From contig CAJWGB010000021.1 of the NCBI GenBank assembly GCA_913031625.1, positions 1 to 38,180 of the forward strand: DNA of 38,180 nucleotides, read 5' to 3'. The notes under the pieces were generated by a model. That model did not search any database, was not told the DNA's origin, and saw only the letters and a list, made by a program, of their open reading frames with translations. Positions 10,023-30,011 of this stretch are shown one piece after another (the first letter of the stretch is position 1; each line of letters opens with the position of its first letter). The translations under genes and the position numbers were made by a program. This DNA is from an uncultured Planctomycetaceae bacterium (GTDB lineage Bacteria; Planctomycetota; Planctomycetia; Planctomycetales; Planctomycetaceae).

Positions 10023-10235
10023 GTCGTTTCCACAGGGCAGGCTTAAGGGGTTCGATGGTCATATTCTCCGGCGAATCTCCCGTGCCGCAACCCGACGAGC
10101 AGGAATCAGGTTTCAGCGGACAGGCTGTTGGCTGTGAAACCGCCTCCCAACGCTCAGAGACTTTTATCTCACAGGACGGTGGGCTAGAACTCCGGCACTC
10201 ATTTCACGTTAATCAGTCCAGGCAGTTTGAATCTC
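10023..10235. promoter_or_regulatory. Divergent promoter region, dehydrogenase and UMP-CMP kinase
   Basis: About 210 bases separate the starts of two divergent genes and must hold both promoters. I found no recognisable operator or sigma-70 consensus pair by eye. Only the geometry supports the call. Confidence 0.3.
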
Positions 10236-11282
10236 ATGACCGACGCCTCAGCACTCGCGCCTAACACGTATTTCATTGAGGTCTCTGGTTCCGGTCTGCC
10301 GGAAGTCGACGGACTCTTTGTTCCGTCGACTGCCCCACCGACAACTTCCGAATCCGGGACTGTGTCCAGCCTGGGATACTGGAATGGAAAAATGGCATGG
10401 GATCGGGCCGATGGAAAGTCCGAACGAAGTCCCGCGATCTCGTATTCCAACAGCTACAAGTCGTGGCGAATCTGCCGCCTTGACGGGCATCTCGCGTATG
10501 ACATGGTTTGCGAGGACGAGCTTCCTCCGACAGATCAGGAATGGCACGTTTACAAGAAGGGGGTGGCTCCGGCACCGAAAATCGTGCTACACCACTTTGA
10601 CCCGCGGGAAGCATGCCCCGCTCCCAATGTCGTATTCGTTCTCGGAGGTCCAGGCGCGGGGAAAGGCACAATGTGTGAACTGGCGGAGTCACAACTGGGC
10701 TGGACTCACCTTTCAACGGGAGAACTGCTTCGGGCCGAGATTGAAAACAATGGTCCTTCGGCAGCCACCGTTAAGGAGTTCATCGATGCGGGTCGGCTCG
10801 TGTCGGACGACATTATGGTGACCCTGCTTCAGAATGCGATGGAGAGGGTGACGAGGACGACGGGCAACAGGAACTTTCTGCTCGATGGTTTTCCAAGGTC
10901 GCAGTCTAACCTTGAAGCATGGTTTGAGATCTTCGGGAGAGAAGCGGAACTCCCCACCATGCTGTACTTTGAATGTCCGTACGAAGTGCTCGAACAACGC
11001 GTGCTTGGTCGGGCCAGGTATACAAATCGCAGTGATGACAACGTCGAAAGTCTGAAGGCTCGGTTCGAAACATTCAAAGCGGACACTCTTCCCACGGTTG
11101 AGGAATTCAGACGTCGCAATAAGGTGGTGGAGATTGATACCAGCCAGGATCGGCAGGCCGTCTACCAGCTTGTCGTCGAAAGTCTTGCGGAACACACTGA
11201 CCAGTCCTGTGCTGACAGGCCACTGTCCGAACGTGCAGAAATGTTGCTTGGGCTGAGACCATTTCCCTCCAAACAGGCCTGA
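10236..11282 (+). CDS. Eukaryote-type UMP-CMP kinase with an extra N-terminal domain
   Basis: A 348-residue protein from the ATG at 10236; a TTG nine bases earlier is the other possible start. From about residue 130 it is a nucleoside monophosphate kinase: P-loop VFVLGGPGAGKGTMC, THLSTGELLRAEI for the NMP site, FLLDGFPRSQSNLEAW, and a short lid containing NRSDDNVESLKARF. The short lid and RSDDN are hallmarks of eukaryotic cytosolic UMP-CMP kinases. Bacteria normally use Cmk and PyrH, which look different, and bacterial adenylate kinases usually have a long lid. The first 125 residues hold a separate Trp/Tyr-rich domain, with a GSGLPEVDGLFVPS stretch, SLGYWNGKMAWDR, ISYSNSYKSWRICR, LAYDMVCEDELPP and WHVYKKGVAPAPKI. 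It resembles a domain I remember from algal and protist proteins. No signal peptide is seen, so it is probably cytoplasmic. Transfer from a eukaryote is inferred. Confidence 0.85.
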   Translation: MTDASALAPNTYFIEVSGSGLPEVDGLFVPSTAPPTTSESGTVSSLGYWNGKMAWDRADGKSERSPAISYSNSYKSWRICRLDGHLAYDMVCEDELPPTDQEWHVYKKGVAPAPKIVLHHFDPREACPAPNVVFVLGGPGAGKGTMCELAESQLGWTHLSTGELLRAEIENNGPSAATVKEFIDAGRLVSDDIMVTLLQNAMERVTRTTGNRNFLLDGFPRSQSNLEAWFEIFGREAELPTMLYFECPYEVLEQRVLGRARYTNRSDDNVESLKARFETFKADTLPTVEEFRRRNKVVEIDTSQDRQAVYQLVVESLAEHTDQSCADRPLSERAEMLLGLRPFPSKQA

Positions 11283-16761: not shown

Positions 16762-17850
16762 ATGTCAGTGAACAGCGACAACGAGATCACGATTAAAGGC
16801 TCCTATGGAGAAGGAGGCGGGCAGATCGTGCGCTCATCGATGGCATTGTCAGCAATCACCGGGCGGGACATTCACATCTATCGTGTGCGTGCCGGACGTA
16901 GTAAGCCAGGCCTGAAACGCCAGCACCTCACTGCTGTTCGTGCCGTTGCGGAGATTTGCGATGGTGAGCTTGAAGGTGACCAGCTGCAGTCTGCGGAACT
17001 GCGATTCCGTCCAGGCAGCGTGACGCCTGGTGAGTATCGGTTCTCTGTTGGTTCTGCCGGCAGTGCAATGCTGGTGCTTCAGACAGTACTTCCCCCATTA
17101 CTCACGTCAGGGGGGCCATCCACGATTCACGTCGAGGGAGGGACTCACAACGACTGGGTTCCTTCCTTTGATTTTATTAATCGAGTCTACCTGCCGCTGA
17201 TTCGCCGCATGGGGCCTGATGTGACGGCGACTCTCAACGACTATGGGTTTTACCCGGCTGGTGGTGGGCGAGTCACCGTGCAGATCAATCCTGTTCCCGC
17301 ACTGTCGGGATTTGATTTGACTGAGTCAGGCCGCGTGCAGGGACAGGTGGTTCGAGCGGTTTCGTCCGGGCTGCCAGCCCATGTGGGCGAACGCGAAACT
17401 CAGCGAGTTGTGCGGCGGCTTAACTGGAGAGCCGAAGAGGAGAATCTGTCCGTACCCTCGGCAGGCCCCGGCAACTTCCTGTGTGCCGAAATTCGCTGTC
17501 AGCACATTACAGAGTTATTCTCCGCTGTTGGCCGAAAGGGAGTACGTGCAGAGAAGGTGGCCGACAGCGTCATACGACAGGTGAAGACATGGAAGAAGTC
17601 GGGAGCTCCCGTGGGAGAATACCTGGCTGATCAGCTAATCCTGCCGTTTGCTCTCAGTGCTGCGATGCACGGTTCCGCTGAGGCACGGGGCATCCGGCGC
17701 GGAGGCAGCTTCGTGACGGGGCCCCTCAGTGAGCATGCGAAGACCCAGATCTGGTTGCTGCACCGTTTCCTGAAGCTCCGGATGGAGGTCAACGAGCACG
17801 ACGGTCGGGTGACGCTGACATTCGAGCCCCCGGATCCGTCCATTGATTGA
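16762..17850 (+). CDS. rtcA: RNA 3'-terminal phosphate cyclase
   Basis: A 362-residue cytoplasmic enzyme that converts RNA 3'-phosphate ends to 2',3'-cyclic phosphates using ATP, via an enzyme-AMP intermediate on histidine. Motifs: GSYGEGGGQIVRSSMALSAITG (13-34), RAGRSKPGLKRQHL (43-56), an inserted domain near 185-275, HVEGGTHNDWVPSFDF (123-138), GFYPAGGGRV (162-171), and LSEHAKTQIWLLHRF near the C-terminus, with His325 as the likely AMP-accepting nucleophile. Length is close to bacterial RtcA (about 340). RtcB, RtcR and other RNA-repair genes, often adjacent in proteobacteria, are absent here, so regulation by RtcR is not supported. It is divergent from the DUF1549/1553 gene and probably transcribed alone. 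Confidence 0.95.
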   Translation: MSVNSDNEITIKGSYGEGGGQIVRSSMALSAITGRDIHIYRVRAGRSKPGLKRQHLTAVRAVAEICDGELEGDQLQSAELRFRPGSVTPGEYRFSVGSAGSAMLVLQTVLPPLLTSGGPSTIHVEGGTHNDWVPSFDFINRVYLPLIRRMGPDVTATLNDYGFYPAGGGRVTVQINPVPALSGFDLTESGRVQGQVVRAVSSGLPAHVGERETQRVVRRLNWRAEEENLSVPSAGPGNFLCAEIRCQHITELFSAVGRKGVRAEKVADSVIRQVKTWKKSGAPVGEYLADQLILPFALSAAMHGSAEARGIRRGGSFVTGPLSEHAKTQIWLLHRFLKLRMEVNEHDGRVTLTFEPPDPSID

Positions 17851-22298: not shown

Positions 22299-25200
22299 AT
22301 GTTGTTGCAGTTTCCGGATGAGCAGACTCTGGCTCTCGCTTTGAATTCGCAAACCGTTCCCGCCGACGTTGCGGAGCTGTGCGCTCGCGCCGGACGTGGC
22401 GATGACGGAAGCATCTGGATTGAATCAAATTCAAAGCTCGCCAGAGCAGCTCAGCAGCAGCTGAAGCACTGGGGGGTCGAGTTTCGACGCACGCGTCGTG
22501 GCCAGCCGGAAATGATGGATGTCCGTTGCTGGCCTCAGATTATTTCAGGTCGGCTGGAGTCCACGCTTGAGCACGTGGGTGAACGCACAGTGGTGCTCTT
22601 TGAACTGCCTGCCCCGGATCAGCTGCCTGGGTTGGTTAATGAGTTGCTGCGGCAGGGAAACGATCGCCTTTCTTTTCAAACACTCACTGATTCCACTGTT
22701 CTGCTGAAAGTCATTGGTCCACCTTATTATACGCTGCTGCGAGCATCTGAAGAGCGAGATAGGCAGCTCCGGGCCTACGTTGAGGTAGCTCCACGCGTTT
22801 GGGCTCCACTTCGGTACAAACACCCTTTTTCAGCGGCGCTGGAGCCTGCGGCAGGCGAGTTGCTGTTTTTGGATCCTGACCCCAGTCAATGGCGGACAGT
22901 GCCGGATGAACCGTTTCGTGACGTGTACGAATTGCTGTCGCTTAAACTTCCGTCGCAGCCTGCGATTCTGTCACATACAGGCTCGTTTCCACATCTTGAA
23001 GTCCCCCTGCTGCTGGCTCGTGGCGGGCAGGATCATGCACCGGAGATCTGGGTCCTCACAGAGAATGCTGTTGACCAGCTCGAGCAGTTTGTCCGGGCTG
23101 CCACGGATCGTGTTGTTGACCGTCTGGCATTCGCAGTGGCGGAGAGTCCTGATGAAGAGCCGGTCATCATCGTACGGGTTCGTCCGGGGAGGTCTGCTCC
23201 TCCGGTCCTTGTGTTCGACGGACTTGGGTGTGTGCCATATCTGCGGATCCCGAATCTGTTTGTGCCGATGGGGCAGCGTATTCATCCGCCGTTGCGACGG
23301 GATGCGGTGAGGGAGATTCTTGCTGAAGATGACAGTCAGCTTGTCTGGCTGCACCCTGCGGGGACGTCTGGTTCATACACCGAGTTTTCTGCCCGGATGA
23401 TTGCTGACTCCGCGTTTCTGCCGTTGTCCAGTTGGGTGGACTATGTGCTCGACCAGGACCGCGAGATCCTGCAGGCGTGGCGACAGTCGCATTCCTTTGA
23501 CTTTGAAGGCTTCGTCTGTCCGTCAGACAATACGAAGGCCAGAAGGAAGGCCGCCCCAAAACAAGCTGAGCCGCAGGACGACGAGATGCCGGTCTCGGAA
23601 AAGCCGCAGGTGGAGGCAAAGGAACAGAAACGCAGGCGTGTTCGTTCACTGAAGAATGATTTGGTCAGAAAGCCGGTGGAGGTTGATGAGGAGCGGGAAC
23701 GGCTTCAGGCCGAGCTGACAAAAGTTGAACAGTCGTTTCTGAAGGATGAAGGTCCCCTTGACGATCCTGCTCGAAGTGAATCATGGTGGACAATGGCGGA
23801 CCTCAATGCCGCGCTGAATCGCTGGTCCGACAGCTCAATTTGCCATCAGCAACTGGTCTGGCAGGAACCGAATCTGTCCGCTGATGCACTGGAGTCATGG
23901 GTTGAGAATGAAGTTGTCGCAGCCCGTGCTTCTCAGCTGAGATGCATCGGAGACACTGAGGGGAATGTGGCAAAGTCTGACGTCATCAGGACTCTGGGCA
24001 AAGATGCAATCTCCCCCTCGGAAGTCAACCAGGTTGTCGCGTGGATCTGTGTCACGGGAACCACAGCCTCGGATGTGATCCGAGAGAATCTGTCAACGAT
24101 CCTCTCGTTTCTCGAAGTAAACGAACGTGTCCTGTCGTCACGTGCCTGCTGGCTGGCGTGGTGGACCGTTTCACGTGCAGCGAATGACGAGCTGACGCTG
24201 GCTCGTGCCCGTGACCGTCTGCTGGAGCGACTGTTTCAGCGAGGAGTTATTCCTGACCGAGATCTGCCAGCCTTCCTGCGAAGCAGTCTCCAGGATGGTG
24301 AGCGATTTCGCACTGTTCGGGATCGTGTGCAACAGTTGCATACGCAGGTGCGCGAGTGGAGTCTCGTCAATCTTGGTGGTGCCGTTCCTTTGACGGCGGA
24401 TTATGTTGACCTGGTCTTTGCCTGGGGACTGGCCCGCCTTGGTGAGTCAACACGTGCCTCAGAACTGCTGCAGTCGGCTCAGCAGATTCTGATCGAAAAA
24501 CCACAATCGAAAGATCCGGTACATCACTGGTTGTGCAGTGCGTATCAATTTCGGATTGAACGCATTCTGGATGGTGAACCCATGACCGGTCAGCTGTCCG
24601 ACGCACTGCTGGCTGAACTGGACGATATGGATTCCACGAATCGGTATCGCATCGATACGCTGCGACGGTTCTCCACGATTATTGAGCCTCATGAACGACT
24701 GGATCAGTATCAGCAGCGGATCGCGGAAGAAGGTAGTCTGGAGCGTCGCCTTGTCGACCTGTTTTCGATCCGAGACGGTGCACAGCTGAAACAACAGATC
24801 GACGTGTTACTCGCGGAGAAACGCGAACTCGAACACGAAGCGGTGATTCTCACGCGGCTGCTGGAACTGGCGCCTCGGCTCGGAGAAGGGTTCGGTATCG
24901 AGTTGGTGACCCGGGCGGGGCATGTGGAATCAAATGTCGGACAACCACTGCTTCGCGCTGGGTTGCTGGAAAAAGGGCTGTTGATCGCAGTGCACTACGG
25001 CCTGTCCGATCAGGTCCAGGCGTTCTACAGTCGGATGGTGACACTGCTGGATGAACTGACTCCATCAGATACGGAGGTCCTCAAAGGACTGAGTGGTATG
25101 CTGAGTGGTTCATTTCGCAGTCTGCGACGCATGGGGATGAAGGAAGAGCTGGCTGTCCTGCTGGAGCGACTTTCCAGACTTGTTCAGGTGACGGGAGCTC

Positions 25201-25640
25201 TCAAGAAAGCCGACCCTGAACTTTTGTCTGTAATGCTGCAGGTCGCCGGCAGCTGGTTTCATTTTGGCATGGACGCGGGATGGAAACAGATTGATTCTGT
25301 CAGGACTGTCATTTTTGCCGGACGCCCCGACGCCCATTCCGAGAAAGCTAAACAGGCGACTCTGGCGATTGCGTATGTGGAAGCTGTGTCTCAGGCACCA
25401 ACTGACGAAGCCATGGATCGGCTGCAGGAGCTCTTTGACAACCTCCGAGGTGTCGAAGAGCATGCCATGGTAAAAACGCACTATTCAGGCAAGATCCTGA
25501 GGATCGTGGAGACGGTCGTGCGGTGTCTTGTCAGTGATGGTTTGTCCGGAGATCAATCGTCTCAGCGCTGGCTGGACGAGACTGAGTACGTACTGAGGCA
25601 GCGAATTCATCGCGACATGCGTGATGCTGTGTCTACGTAG
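22299..25640 (+). CDS. Large cytoplasmic protein of unknown function (possible bpX-type)
   Basis: A 1113-residue protein, not identified with confidence. It has no signal peptide or membrane segment. Residues 1-410 are mixed alpha/beta, starting MLLQFPDEQTLALALNSQ with many short hydrophobic strands (ERTVVLFELPAP, AGELLFLDPDP, EPVIIVRVRPGRS, VLVFDGLGCVPYLRIPNLFVP, SQLVWLHPAGTSGSY). A charged, basic linker (about 410-470) contains RRKAAPKQAEP and EQKRRRVRSLKND. The rest (about 470-1113) is almost entirely helical, with TPR-like spacing but no clear repeat consensus. The first 80 residues remind me of the N-terminal domains called bpX in MoxR-VWA-beta-propeller ternary conflict systems; this is a tentative memory, not a match I can verify. 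AGGAAG before the ATG supports the start. It follows the protease by 30 bases. Confidence 0.8.
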   Translation: MLLQFPDEQTLALALNSQTVPADVAELCARAGRGDDGSIWIESNSKLARAAQQQLKHWGVEFRRTRRGQPEMMDVRCWPQIISGRLESTLEHVGERTVVLFELPAPDQLPGLVNELLRQGNDRLSFQTLTDSTVLLKVIGPPYYTLLRASEERDRQLRAYVEVAPRVWAPLRYKHPFSAALEPAAGELLFLDPDPSQWRTVPDEPFRDVYELLSLKLPSQPAILSHTGSFPHLEVPLLLARGGQDHAPEIWVLTENAVDQLEQFVRAATDRVVDRLAFAVAESPDEEPVIIVRVRPGRSAPPVLVFDGLGCVPYLRIPNLFVPMGQRIHPPLRRDAVREILAEDDSQLVWLHPAGTSGSYTEFSARMIADSAFLPLSSWVDYVLDQDREILQAWRQSHSFDFEGFVCPSDNTKARRKAAPKQAEPQDDEMPVSEKPQVEAKEQKRRRVRSLKNDLVRKPVEVDEERERLQAELTKVEQSFLKDEGPLDDPARSESWWTMADLNAALNRWSDSSICHQQLVWQEPNLSADALESWVENEVVAARASQLRCIGDTEGNVAKSDVIRTLGKDAISPSEVNQVVAWICVTGTTASDVIRENLSTILSFLEVNERVLSSRACWLAWWTVSRAANDELTLARARDRLLERLFQRGVIPDRDLPAFLRSSLQDGERFRTVRDRVQQLHTQVREWSLVNLGGAVPLTADYVDLVFAWGLARLGESTRASELLQSAQQILIEKPQSKDPVHHWLCSAYQFRIERILDGEPMTGQLSDALLAELDDMDSTNRYRIDTLRRFSTIIEPHERLDQYQQRIAEEGSLERRLVDLFSIRDGAQLKQQIDVLLAEKRELEHEAVILTRLLELAPRLGEGFGIELVTRAGHVESNVGQPLLRAGLLEKGLLIAVHYGLSDQVQAFYSRMVTLLDELTPSDTEVLKGLSGMLSGSFRSLRRMGMKEELAVLLERLSRLVQVTGALKKADPELLSVMLQVAGSWFHFGMDAGWKQIDSVRTVIFAGRPDAHSEKAKQATLAIAYVEAVSQAPTDEAMDRLQELFDNLRGVEEHAMVKTHYSGKILRIVETVVRCLVSDGLSGDQSSQRWLDETEYVLRQRIHRDMRDAVST

Positions 25641-28775: not shown

Positions 28776-29021
28776 GGCGGTGAACATGGCGTGCGGTGCG
28801 CACTAGCATGCTGTGTGAGTGTTCTGGTTTTTTGAAAGACTCTTTCCTAATTGAACCAGGGAGAGTTGCAGCACTGGCAACTCTTGAGAAAATTGCGGCG
28901 GAAGAGGGCAGGTGGGGCGACCGCCTGAGTCGTTCCTGGTGTCACGCGACTGCAGGCGATCCAGTTTGTTCCACTGCCTGCCGCAGTGGTCCGGCAAACA
29001 GTCACAGAGTTTTTACGAACG

Positions 29022-30011
29022 ATGCACGCAGATATTCAACAGGTGAAGGAAAAGGTTGGCGAAAAGTCCGACCTGATTCGTCAGCTTCAGGTTGAACTTG
29101 GGAAGGTCGTCGTCGGCCAGGAACACATGGTTTCCCGACTACTGGTTGGGCTGCTGACTGAAGGGCATGTCCTGCTTGAGGGGGTTCCCGGGCTTGCCAA
29201 GACAACTGTCATCAATGCGCTGGCTCAGGCACTCTCTGTCAGCTTCAATCGCATTCAGTTTACCCCTGACCTGCTGCCCGCTGACCTTCTGGGAACCATG
29301 ATCTACGTTCCGGGTGACGGCACGTTTAAGACACGCAAAGGGCCCGTGTTTGCCAACCTGATTCTCGCGGATGAAATTAACCGAGCTCCGTCAAAGGTTC
29401 AGTCAGCGCTGCTGGAAGCAATGCAGGAACGGCAGGTGACAATAGGTGATGAGTCTTACCCACTCGAGCGGCCATTTCTGGTTCTTGCCACTCAGAACCC
29501 CATCGAGCAGGAAGGAACCTACCCACTGCCGGAGGCGCAGGTTGACCGATTCATGCTGAAGGTGACGATTAGTTATCCGAAGCAGGACGAGGAACGCCGG
29601 GTCCTCGATATGGCACTGGAAGAAACGGCTCGGCCCGTGACGTCTGTGCTGCAGGTGCAGGATATCTTTGACATGCAGCAGGTTGTCAAAATGATCTATG
29701 TTGACGACCAGATTAAGGAGTACATCGTAAGTCTCGTGCGAGCCACACGCGATCCGGCTGAGTACAAGGTTCGCAACGTTGCCGAGCTGATAGATTTCGG
29801 TGCCTCTCCCCGAGCAAGTATCTTTCTCGGTATGGGGGCTCGAGCGATCGCATTTTTGAATGGTCGCGGCTATGTGACTCCTCAGGATGTTAAGGATATC
29901 GCGTTCGACGTACTGCGCCACAGAGTCATCCTGACTTACGAAGCTGAGGCTGAAGAGAAGACAGCGGACGACGTGATCCGTGAAATCCTCAACGCTGTGC
30001 CCGTTCCCTGA
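29022..30011 (+). CDS. MoxR-type AAA+ ATPase
   Basis: A 329-residue MoxR ATPase from the ATG at 29022. A GTG at 28986 in the same frame would add 12 residues; neither has a strong ribosome site. Motifs: KVVVGQEHMVSRLLVGLLTEGHVLLEGVPGLAKT with Walker A GVPGLAKTT (54-62), FTPDLLPADLLGTMIYVPG, ANLILADEINRAPSKVQSALLEAMQERQVT with Walker B (113-120), ATQNPIEQEGTYPLPEAQVDRFML as sensor 1 region, and GASPRASIFL plus DVKDIAFDVLRHR as the lid with sensor 2 Arg. MoxR proteins act as chaperones that help load metal or cofactor, or mature complexes, together with VWA proteins. It opens a tight cluster with DUF58, BatD-like and BatA-like genes, the usual partners. Confidence 0.95.
   Translation: MHADIQQVKEKVGEKSDLIRQLQVELGKVVVGQEHMVSRLLVGLLTEGHVLLEGVPGLAKTTVINALAQALSVSFNRIQFTPDLLPADLLGTMIYVPGDGTFKTRKGPVFANLILADEINRAPSKVQSALLEAMQERQVTIGDESYPLERPFLVLATQNPIEQEGTYPLPEAQVDRFMLKVTISYPKQDEERRVLDMALEETARPVTSVLQVQDIFDMQQVVKMIYVDDQIKEYIVSLVRATRDPAEYKVRNVAELIDFGASPRASIFLGMGARAIAFLNGRGYVTPQDVKDIAFDVLRHRVILTYEAEAEEKTADDVIREILNAVPVP

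Follow-up and report, generated by a model that had tools for sequence, protein, structure and literature searches.

The gene described here encodes a fused protein of 348 amino acids, in which an N-terminal domain of about 128 residues (N-domain) precedes a short-lid kinase and a conserved C-terminal tail. It lies on the forward strand of a 38,180-nucleotide stretch of DNA from an uncultured Planctomycetaceae bacterium, referred to as the window, where its reading frame extends from an ATG at 10236 to a TGA at 11280-11282 (Table 1). A TTG at 10227 represents an alternative, less likely start, since the ATG coincides with the start of most aligned relatives. With moderate confidence, we regard the product as a mobile accessory UMP/CMP kinase of eukaryote-type ancestry that has spread among bacteria and would be tuned or placed by an N-domain binding a ligand or a partner. 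We call the kinase accessory because the host genome also encodes Cmk, PyrH and a second gene of the ADK family. All motifs which the original prediction had quoted for the kinase and the N-terminal part were found in the translated frame. In titles and the opening parts of abstracts, no paper on the fused kinase family or its N-domain was found.

Table 1. Location of the fused gene, its parts and the standalone N-domain genes. Positions refer to the window unless a contig is named.
Feature	Location	Strand	Basis or remark
Whole gene (N-domain, UMP-CMP-type kinase, conserved C-terminal tail)	10236..11282	+	348 aa
N-terminal beta-domain, residues 10-120, with FIEVSGSGLPEVDG, WNGKMAWDRADGK, SWRICRLDGHLAY, PP..W, GVAPAP	10263..10595	+	Conservation, AlphaFold2 model, viral-contig profile match
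Linker, residues 121-130, conserved DPR..CP	10596..10625	+	18-sequence alignment
Kinase domain, residues 132-317	10629..11186	+	TIGR01359 span, PF00406, structure model
P-loop GGPGAGKGTMC, residues 137-147	10644..10676	+	M146 in 80/80 aligned rows
Asn225, aligned with Dictyostelium Asn97 and human Asn100	10908..10910	+	80/80 aligned rows
Short lid RSDDN, residues 265-269	11028..11042	+	80-row alignment
C-terminal tail PLSERAEMLLGLRPFP, residues 329-344, past the matched eukaryotic kinase domain	11220..11267	+	Tail conservation
Standalone N-domain gene	L133:1483-1869	-	Strong purifying selection
Standalone N-domain gene	L137:1420-1857	+	Strong purifying selection

The kinase part belongs to the Pfam family PF00406 (ADK), matched by residues 135-294 with E 1.5e-37 and 129.5 bits against a gathering cut-off of 26.8. 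Among the NCBIfam models, TIGR01359 (UMP_CMP_kin_fam) scores best (residues 132-317, E 3.4e-53), yet its 180.3 bits stay below the curated cut-off of 207.6, and for this reason we name the protein UMP-CMP-kinase-like. The model of bacterial Cmk, TIGR00017, gives 16.4 bits against a cut-off of 135.55. Residues were compared in an alignment of 80 rows, that is, 79 loci and the window; one locus (L018) is absent from the alignment and present in the trees. The hallmarks of TIGR01359, a lid of the form R-x-D-D-N and the aligned Asn, occur in 80 of 80 rows, as do R265, D267, D268 and N269 of the lid individually; S266 is found in 50 of 80.

By sequence, the closest relatives in the PDB are the UMP-CMP kinases of Dictyostelium (1qf9), human (1tev) and yeast (Ura6, 1uky), with 41, 39 and 38% identity over the kinase. 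A Foldseek search with the full structure model, whose kinase span shows pLDDT values of 60-93 by 10-residue block, ranks yeast Ura6 and Dictyostelium UMP/CMP kinase first. The RSDDN lid and the FVLGGPG P-loop are common to the fused protein and the eukaryotic enzymes, and the Asn at the base-reading position is shared with Dictyostelium and human; yeast Ura6 has Gln there. In the Dictyostelium enzyme, this Asn presumably reads the pyrimidine. The residues aligned with Dictyostelium K19, R42, R93, N97, R127, R131, R137, D139, D140 and R148, which we take to have catalytic roles, are identical in all 80 rows. Judged from sequence, the protein is thus probably specific for UMP and CMP. It differs from the eukaryotic enzymes in the additional N-domain and C-terminal tail, in the long stem of its family, and in its occurrence in bacteria beside Cmk and PyrH. 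Moreover, the P-loop Gln of aligned eukaryotic and unfused bacterial kinases is replaced by Met146 throughout (80 of 80 rows), and activity may therefore be altered. Within the tail, L338 and G339 are conserved in 80, L340 in 79 and R341 in 77 of 80 rows.

The N-domain is the more conserved of the two parts. Its mean pairwise identity is 82%, compared to 75% for the kinase (3160 pairs among 80 proteins); the 82%, calculated over residues 9-118, confirms that the extra N-terminal part of the original prediction is real. An alignment of 16 sequences has 54 invariant columns, and D122, P123, R124, C127 and P128 of the adjacent linker are invariant in 18 of 18 aligned sequences. The domain has no match among catalogued families: residues 1-128 matched none in a Pfam scan of the whole protein, the 16 members of the alignment gave a single chance hit in Pfam (E 0.17), and the same 16 matched no PHROG. 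An AlphaFold2 model built from 60 sequences consists mainly of strands (pLDDT 81). Foldseek found no match for it in PDB and BFVD at E 0.001, and VIA gave no fold with a Z of at least 5, a result that is no proof of a new fold.

In two genomes of the Marinobacter genus (G541 and G837), an ORF with the N-domain and without the kinase occurs besides the fused gene. Both standalone genes share a neighbourhood of acyltransferase-like and cold-shock-like genes, as judged by eye, and visual inspection revealed no remains of a kinase downstream of them. Their pairwise dN/dS is 0.023 at a dS of 1.17. All 41 columns that do not vary among the 60 sequences, including D56, R57, D59, R64, R78, R81, D83 and H85, are retained in the standalone copies, whereas both copies depart from the fused ones at positions 39, 40, 72, 74 and 91, which are well conserved. 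Since these genes are constrained, the N-domain may have a job of its own or act in trans on the fused paralogue.

Relatives of the N-domain were found on viral contigs. Viral scans with the bacterial N-domain alignments gave no match, and the relatives were found by a motif scan alone. A DNA pattern for a remembered motif, VSGAGxxxVNG, picked 102 viral stretches, which yielded 68 motif hits with 90 residues behind the motif; 49 remained without near-copies, and 34 of these were self-consistent. Many of the IMG/VR stretches picked in this way encode a roughly 90-residue domain in which WxI, a P..W block and GxxPAP can be recognised, elements that played no part in the selection; in the final 34 sequences, a WxI-like element and a PxP element are each present in 29. 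Using the residues behind the motif, hhalign aligned the 49 non-redundant hits to the N-domain with 18% probability (E 0.0013, score 21.6; highest of 100 shuffles 13.1), and the 34 self-consistent sequences with 84% (P 7.4e-6, score 31.2). The controls for the latter score reached 14.7 (top of 200 shuffles), 9.6 (kinase part) and 13.4 (reversed N-domain). Removal of three odd viral rows gave 53%, and when the C-terminal PAP block was removed as well, the score of 17.5 was not above the shuffles, 2 of 200 being higher. Inclusion of the motif raised the probability to 97%, a value biased by the selection.

A profile of the 34 sequences with the motif left out ranked all 81 fused ORFs (79 distinct) above the 696 others in a set of 777 ORFs of the loci; the best E-value was 1.3e-6 and that of the best other ORF 0.31, and the cleaned set gave 2.8e-6 versus 0.63. 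Conversely, the N-domain profile matched one viral ORF (L273, E 1.8e-6; best single domain 0.046). In the viral domains of L299, L305, L315, L321 and L341, the VSGxGxxxVxG start, WxI, P..W and GxxPAP follow in the same order as in the N-domain. The viral domains seen differ in having no kinase fusion and in lacking AWDRADG and SWRICRLDGH, whose residues hardly vary in the bacterial N-domain. From these comparisons, we consider it quite probable that the N-domain and the viral-contig domain are homologous.

The viral domain (VSGAG...VNG...WxI...GxxPAPT) occurs in the environmental contigs L255-L352, for example at L299:1751-2443, L315:2979-3560, L321:3-572 and L341:1008-4376. Ten viral proteins were scanned; those of L305 and L341 match baseplate wedge families, a third one weakly matches a virion structural family (E 2e-4), and the domain itself was named by neither Pfam nor PHROGs in these ten. 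Partners of the domain are single cases, namely baseplate wedge (two), TIG and, weakly, a laminin-G-like domain. On contig L315, the domain gene is surrounded by genes for major head, scaffold, endolysin and tail collar fibre proteins; most neighbours of the domain genes in L259, L264 and L268 have no PHROG match. Among isolate phages, the whole fused protein matches 15 records with its kinase part only. Two of the viral-contig domains gave no match to isolate phages, and one of them none to plasmids.

The fused gene is distributed over many bacterial groups. When genome contigs were scanned with the protein, 145 related loci were detected, and the best 80 of these 145 all encode the whole fused protein, with 69-78% identity spanning both parts and under 11 phylum labels. 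Such a scan needs short conserved peptide words and therefore favours close relatives. Taxa given in the locus titles are Planctomycetota, Verrucomicrobiota, Halomonas, Marinobacter, Granulosicoccaceae, Desulfuromonadales, Halobacteriovorax, Gemmatimonadota, Latescibacterota, Hydrogenedentota, Vicinamibacterales and Lentisphaeria; many of these loci are MAGs, whose taxon labels can be wrong. Two MAGs labelled Latescibacterota (L046) and Gemmatimonadota (L048) carry nearly identical fused proteins, which indicates either recent transfer or a wrong label. Within single groups, the N-domain profile found 8 of 392 Planctomycetota genomes, all with at least 224 bits and with no weaker match at E 0.001, 1 of 337 Verrucomicrobiota genomes (the search centre itself), and strong matches in 2 of 398 Pseudomonadota genomes, one being the search centre. 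Seven other Pseudomonadota genomes showed weak matches only (E 5.5e-4 to 0.03); the one inspected (L128) lies in an ORF that resembles LptC by eye. In the genus that includes Marinobacter zhanjiangensis, 4 of 100 genomes were positive. As so few genomes per phylum match the profile, the fused gene is rare and patchy.

The 81 family members form a star-like tree in which the phyla are intermingled; the Planctomycetota require 9 label changes, only 2 of which are forced by starred branches. Identity of the fused protein was compared to that of PyrH in 9 genomes (9 of 12 chosen genes were extracted; the window's own, L247 and L253 are left out). In 32 of 32 cross-phylum pairs, the fused protein is the more similar one, on average 73% versus 53%. 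Within phyla, two planctomycetes show equal divergence (79% for both proteins), a Halomonas-Marinobacter pair has 92% versus 79%, and a Granulosicoccaceae bin shares 72% of the fused protein with each of Halomonas and Marinobacter at a PyrH identity of 58-59%. A copy with 72.7% identity resides on a Comamonas plasmid, which was typed as non-mobilizable. We read the identities and the patchy distribution as signs of horizontal spread; strong constraint may explain part of the high identity.

No general neighbour or operon partner is conserved in 88 stretches, which comprise the 80 loci of the genome scan, 7 Planctomycetota profile loci (some on the same contigs) and the window; the ORF picker missed the fused frame in 7 of the 88. 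Apart from the gene itself, the most frequent neighbour cluster looks sulfatase-like by eye and occurs in 16 of 88 stretches. On the Comamonas plasmid, the fused gene is flanked by genes for a diguanylate cyclase and a NUDIX protein, and the run also contains SulP, Usp, TraR/DksA, cfa and RF3. The NUDIX neighbour is kept in four Marinobacter genomes (L045, L049, L125 and L136), and L045 also has SulP, Usp and cfa. The stress and metabolic run of the plasmid of Comamonas sp. C11 (L141, 5785-18387) adjoins an integrase gene and is partly common with Marinobacter. Elsewhere in the window, 22299-25640 and 28986-30011 match the profiles fvmX7 (FtsH ternary system domain X7) and bpMoxR (MoxR-vWA-beta-propeller ternary system), a trypsin-like protease gene lies just upstream of 22299-25640, and 16762-17850 encodes an RNA 3'-terminal phosphate cyclase with an insert domain.

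The descent of the kinase part was addressed in trees with six eukaryotic sequences only. In each of three trees, the fused kinases group with the three UMP-CMP kinases from eukaryotes (98/93, 100/99 and 99/96), in line with the eukaryote-type kinase of the original prediction. In the best trees, the fused kinases are nested among the eukaryotic UMP-CMP kinases, with human and Dictyostelium nearer than yeast. The 99/96 grouping separates fused and eukaryotic UMP-CMP kinases from 23 unfused bacterial ones. Five bacterial kinases with long branches were left out of two trees including this one, which also lacks the Pseudomonadota loci L227, L228 and L237 (no usable ORF) and includes 5 of 80 viral kinase loci. 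Bacterial short-lid adenylate kinases (Thermus 3cm0; planctomycete L097-L108) have the PF00406 fold and the short lid in common with the fused family, but differ in a GPPG-type P-loop, in Gln at the base position (in those inspected) and in having no N-domain, and are placed across a branch supported at 97/90 to 100/100. An independent offshoot of these enzymes, convergent on UMP-CMP-like residues and without eukaryotic ancestry, would agree with the long stem of the fused family (1.3-1.6 changes per column in the three trees) and with the AU test, which did not reject six eukaryotic rows as one clade (p 0.14-0.23); holding the three eukaryotic UMP-CMP kinases together was not rejected either (0.31). 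Such an origin is nevertheless unlikely in view of the three groupings and of the TIGR01359 scores. Complete fused kinases reach 182-193 bits (132 for one copy cut by a contig end), the best unfused bacterial kinases 149 bits in 99 Planctomycetota and 145 in 249 Pseudomonadota genomes, and no unfused kinase of intermediate score was found among these genomes. The original prediction had gone further and proposed that this genome acquired the kinase together with the N-domain from a marine alga, the product being a sensor-linked nucleotide kinase. The nesting among eukaryotic enzymes is compatible with this proposal, as are GxAPAP domains that presumably occur in algae. It is very unlikely all the same, because the best 80 of the 145 loci are all fused and belong to many phyla, the tree is star-like and a plasmid copy exists; the wide bacterial presence is the very outcome that had been named as contradicting it, and relatives of the N-domain on viral contigs were found as well. 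A recent private acquisition from an alga is thus rejected as the main reading. More is explained if the gene was transferred once in an ancestor and then spread among bacteria; a single origin with subsequent spread is what the patchy presence, the plasmid copy and the star-like tree point to.

A role in genome conflict or phage defence, in which the N-domain would recognise a signal or component of a phage and the kinase would alter the nucleotide pool, could account for the patchy distribution, the plasmid copy and the kinship of the N-domain with a domain on viral contigs that also encode tail and lysis functions. We hold it to be highly improbable, as for the fused protein PADLOC gave only a weak match, of the kinase part to VakA (E 0.0073), no neighbour is conserved in the 88 stretches, and the plasmid and Marinobacter contexts consist of metabolic and stress genes. 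Also very doubtful is a more far-reaching scheme, in which an uncatalogued ligand-binding beta-domain common to phage structural proteins and a eukaryote-derived bacterial kinase would gate pyrimidine nucleotide supply. The protein would then be a mobile one-gene sensor-effector, its UMP/CMP kinase being switched by the N-domain in response to a glycan, to a nucleotide signal or to some component of a phage.

For the mobile accessory kinase that we favour, the following course of events is the likeliest. The ancestor of the bacterial family probably gained the kinase part once, from a eukaryote-type UMP-CMP kinase, and the fused gene would then have spread among bacteria of many phyla. The enzyme is predicted to use ATP to phosphorylate UMP and CMP, perhaps also dCMP, through the same P-loop and short-lid chemistry as its eukaryotic counterparts. 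As an extra kinase, it may escape the regulation of the host's Cmk, PyrH and other ADK-family gene. The N-domain contributes a further set of charged and aromatic residues that do not vary, and its most likely role is to bind a ligand or a partner by which the kinase is tuned or positioned.

For pyrimidine monophosphates, bacteria generally rely on Cmk and PyrH. A UMP-CMP kinase of eukaryote type that is mobile and occurs under many phylum labels would be an unexpected addition to this pair. Its N-domain is the most conserved part of the protein, stands alone in some genomes and is probably linked to an uncatalogued domain of phage proteins. Through the fusion to a kinase and the link to phages, the function of this domain becomes testable with a soluble enzyme, the activity of which could report ligand binding.
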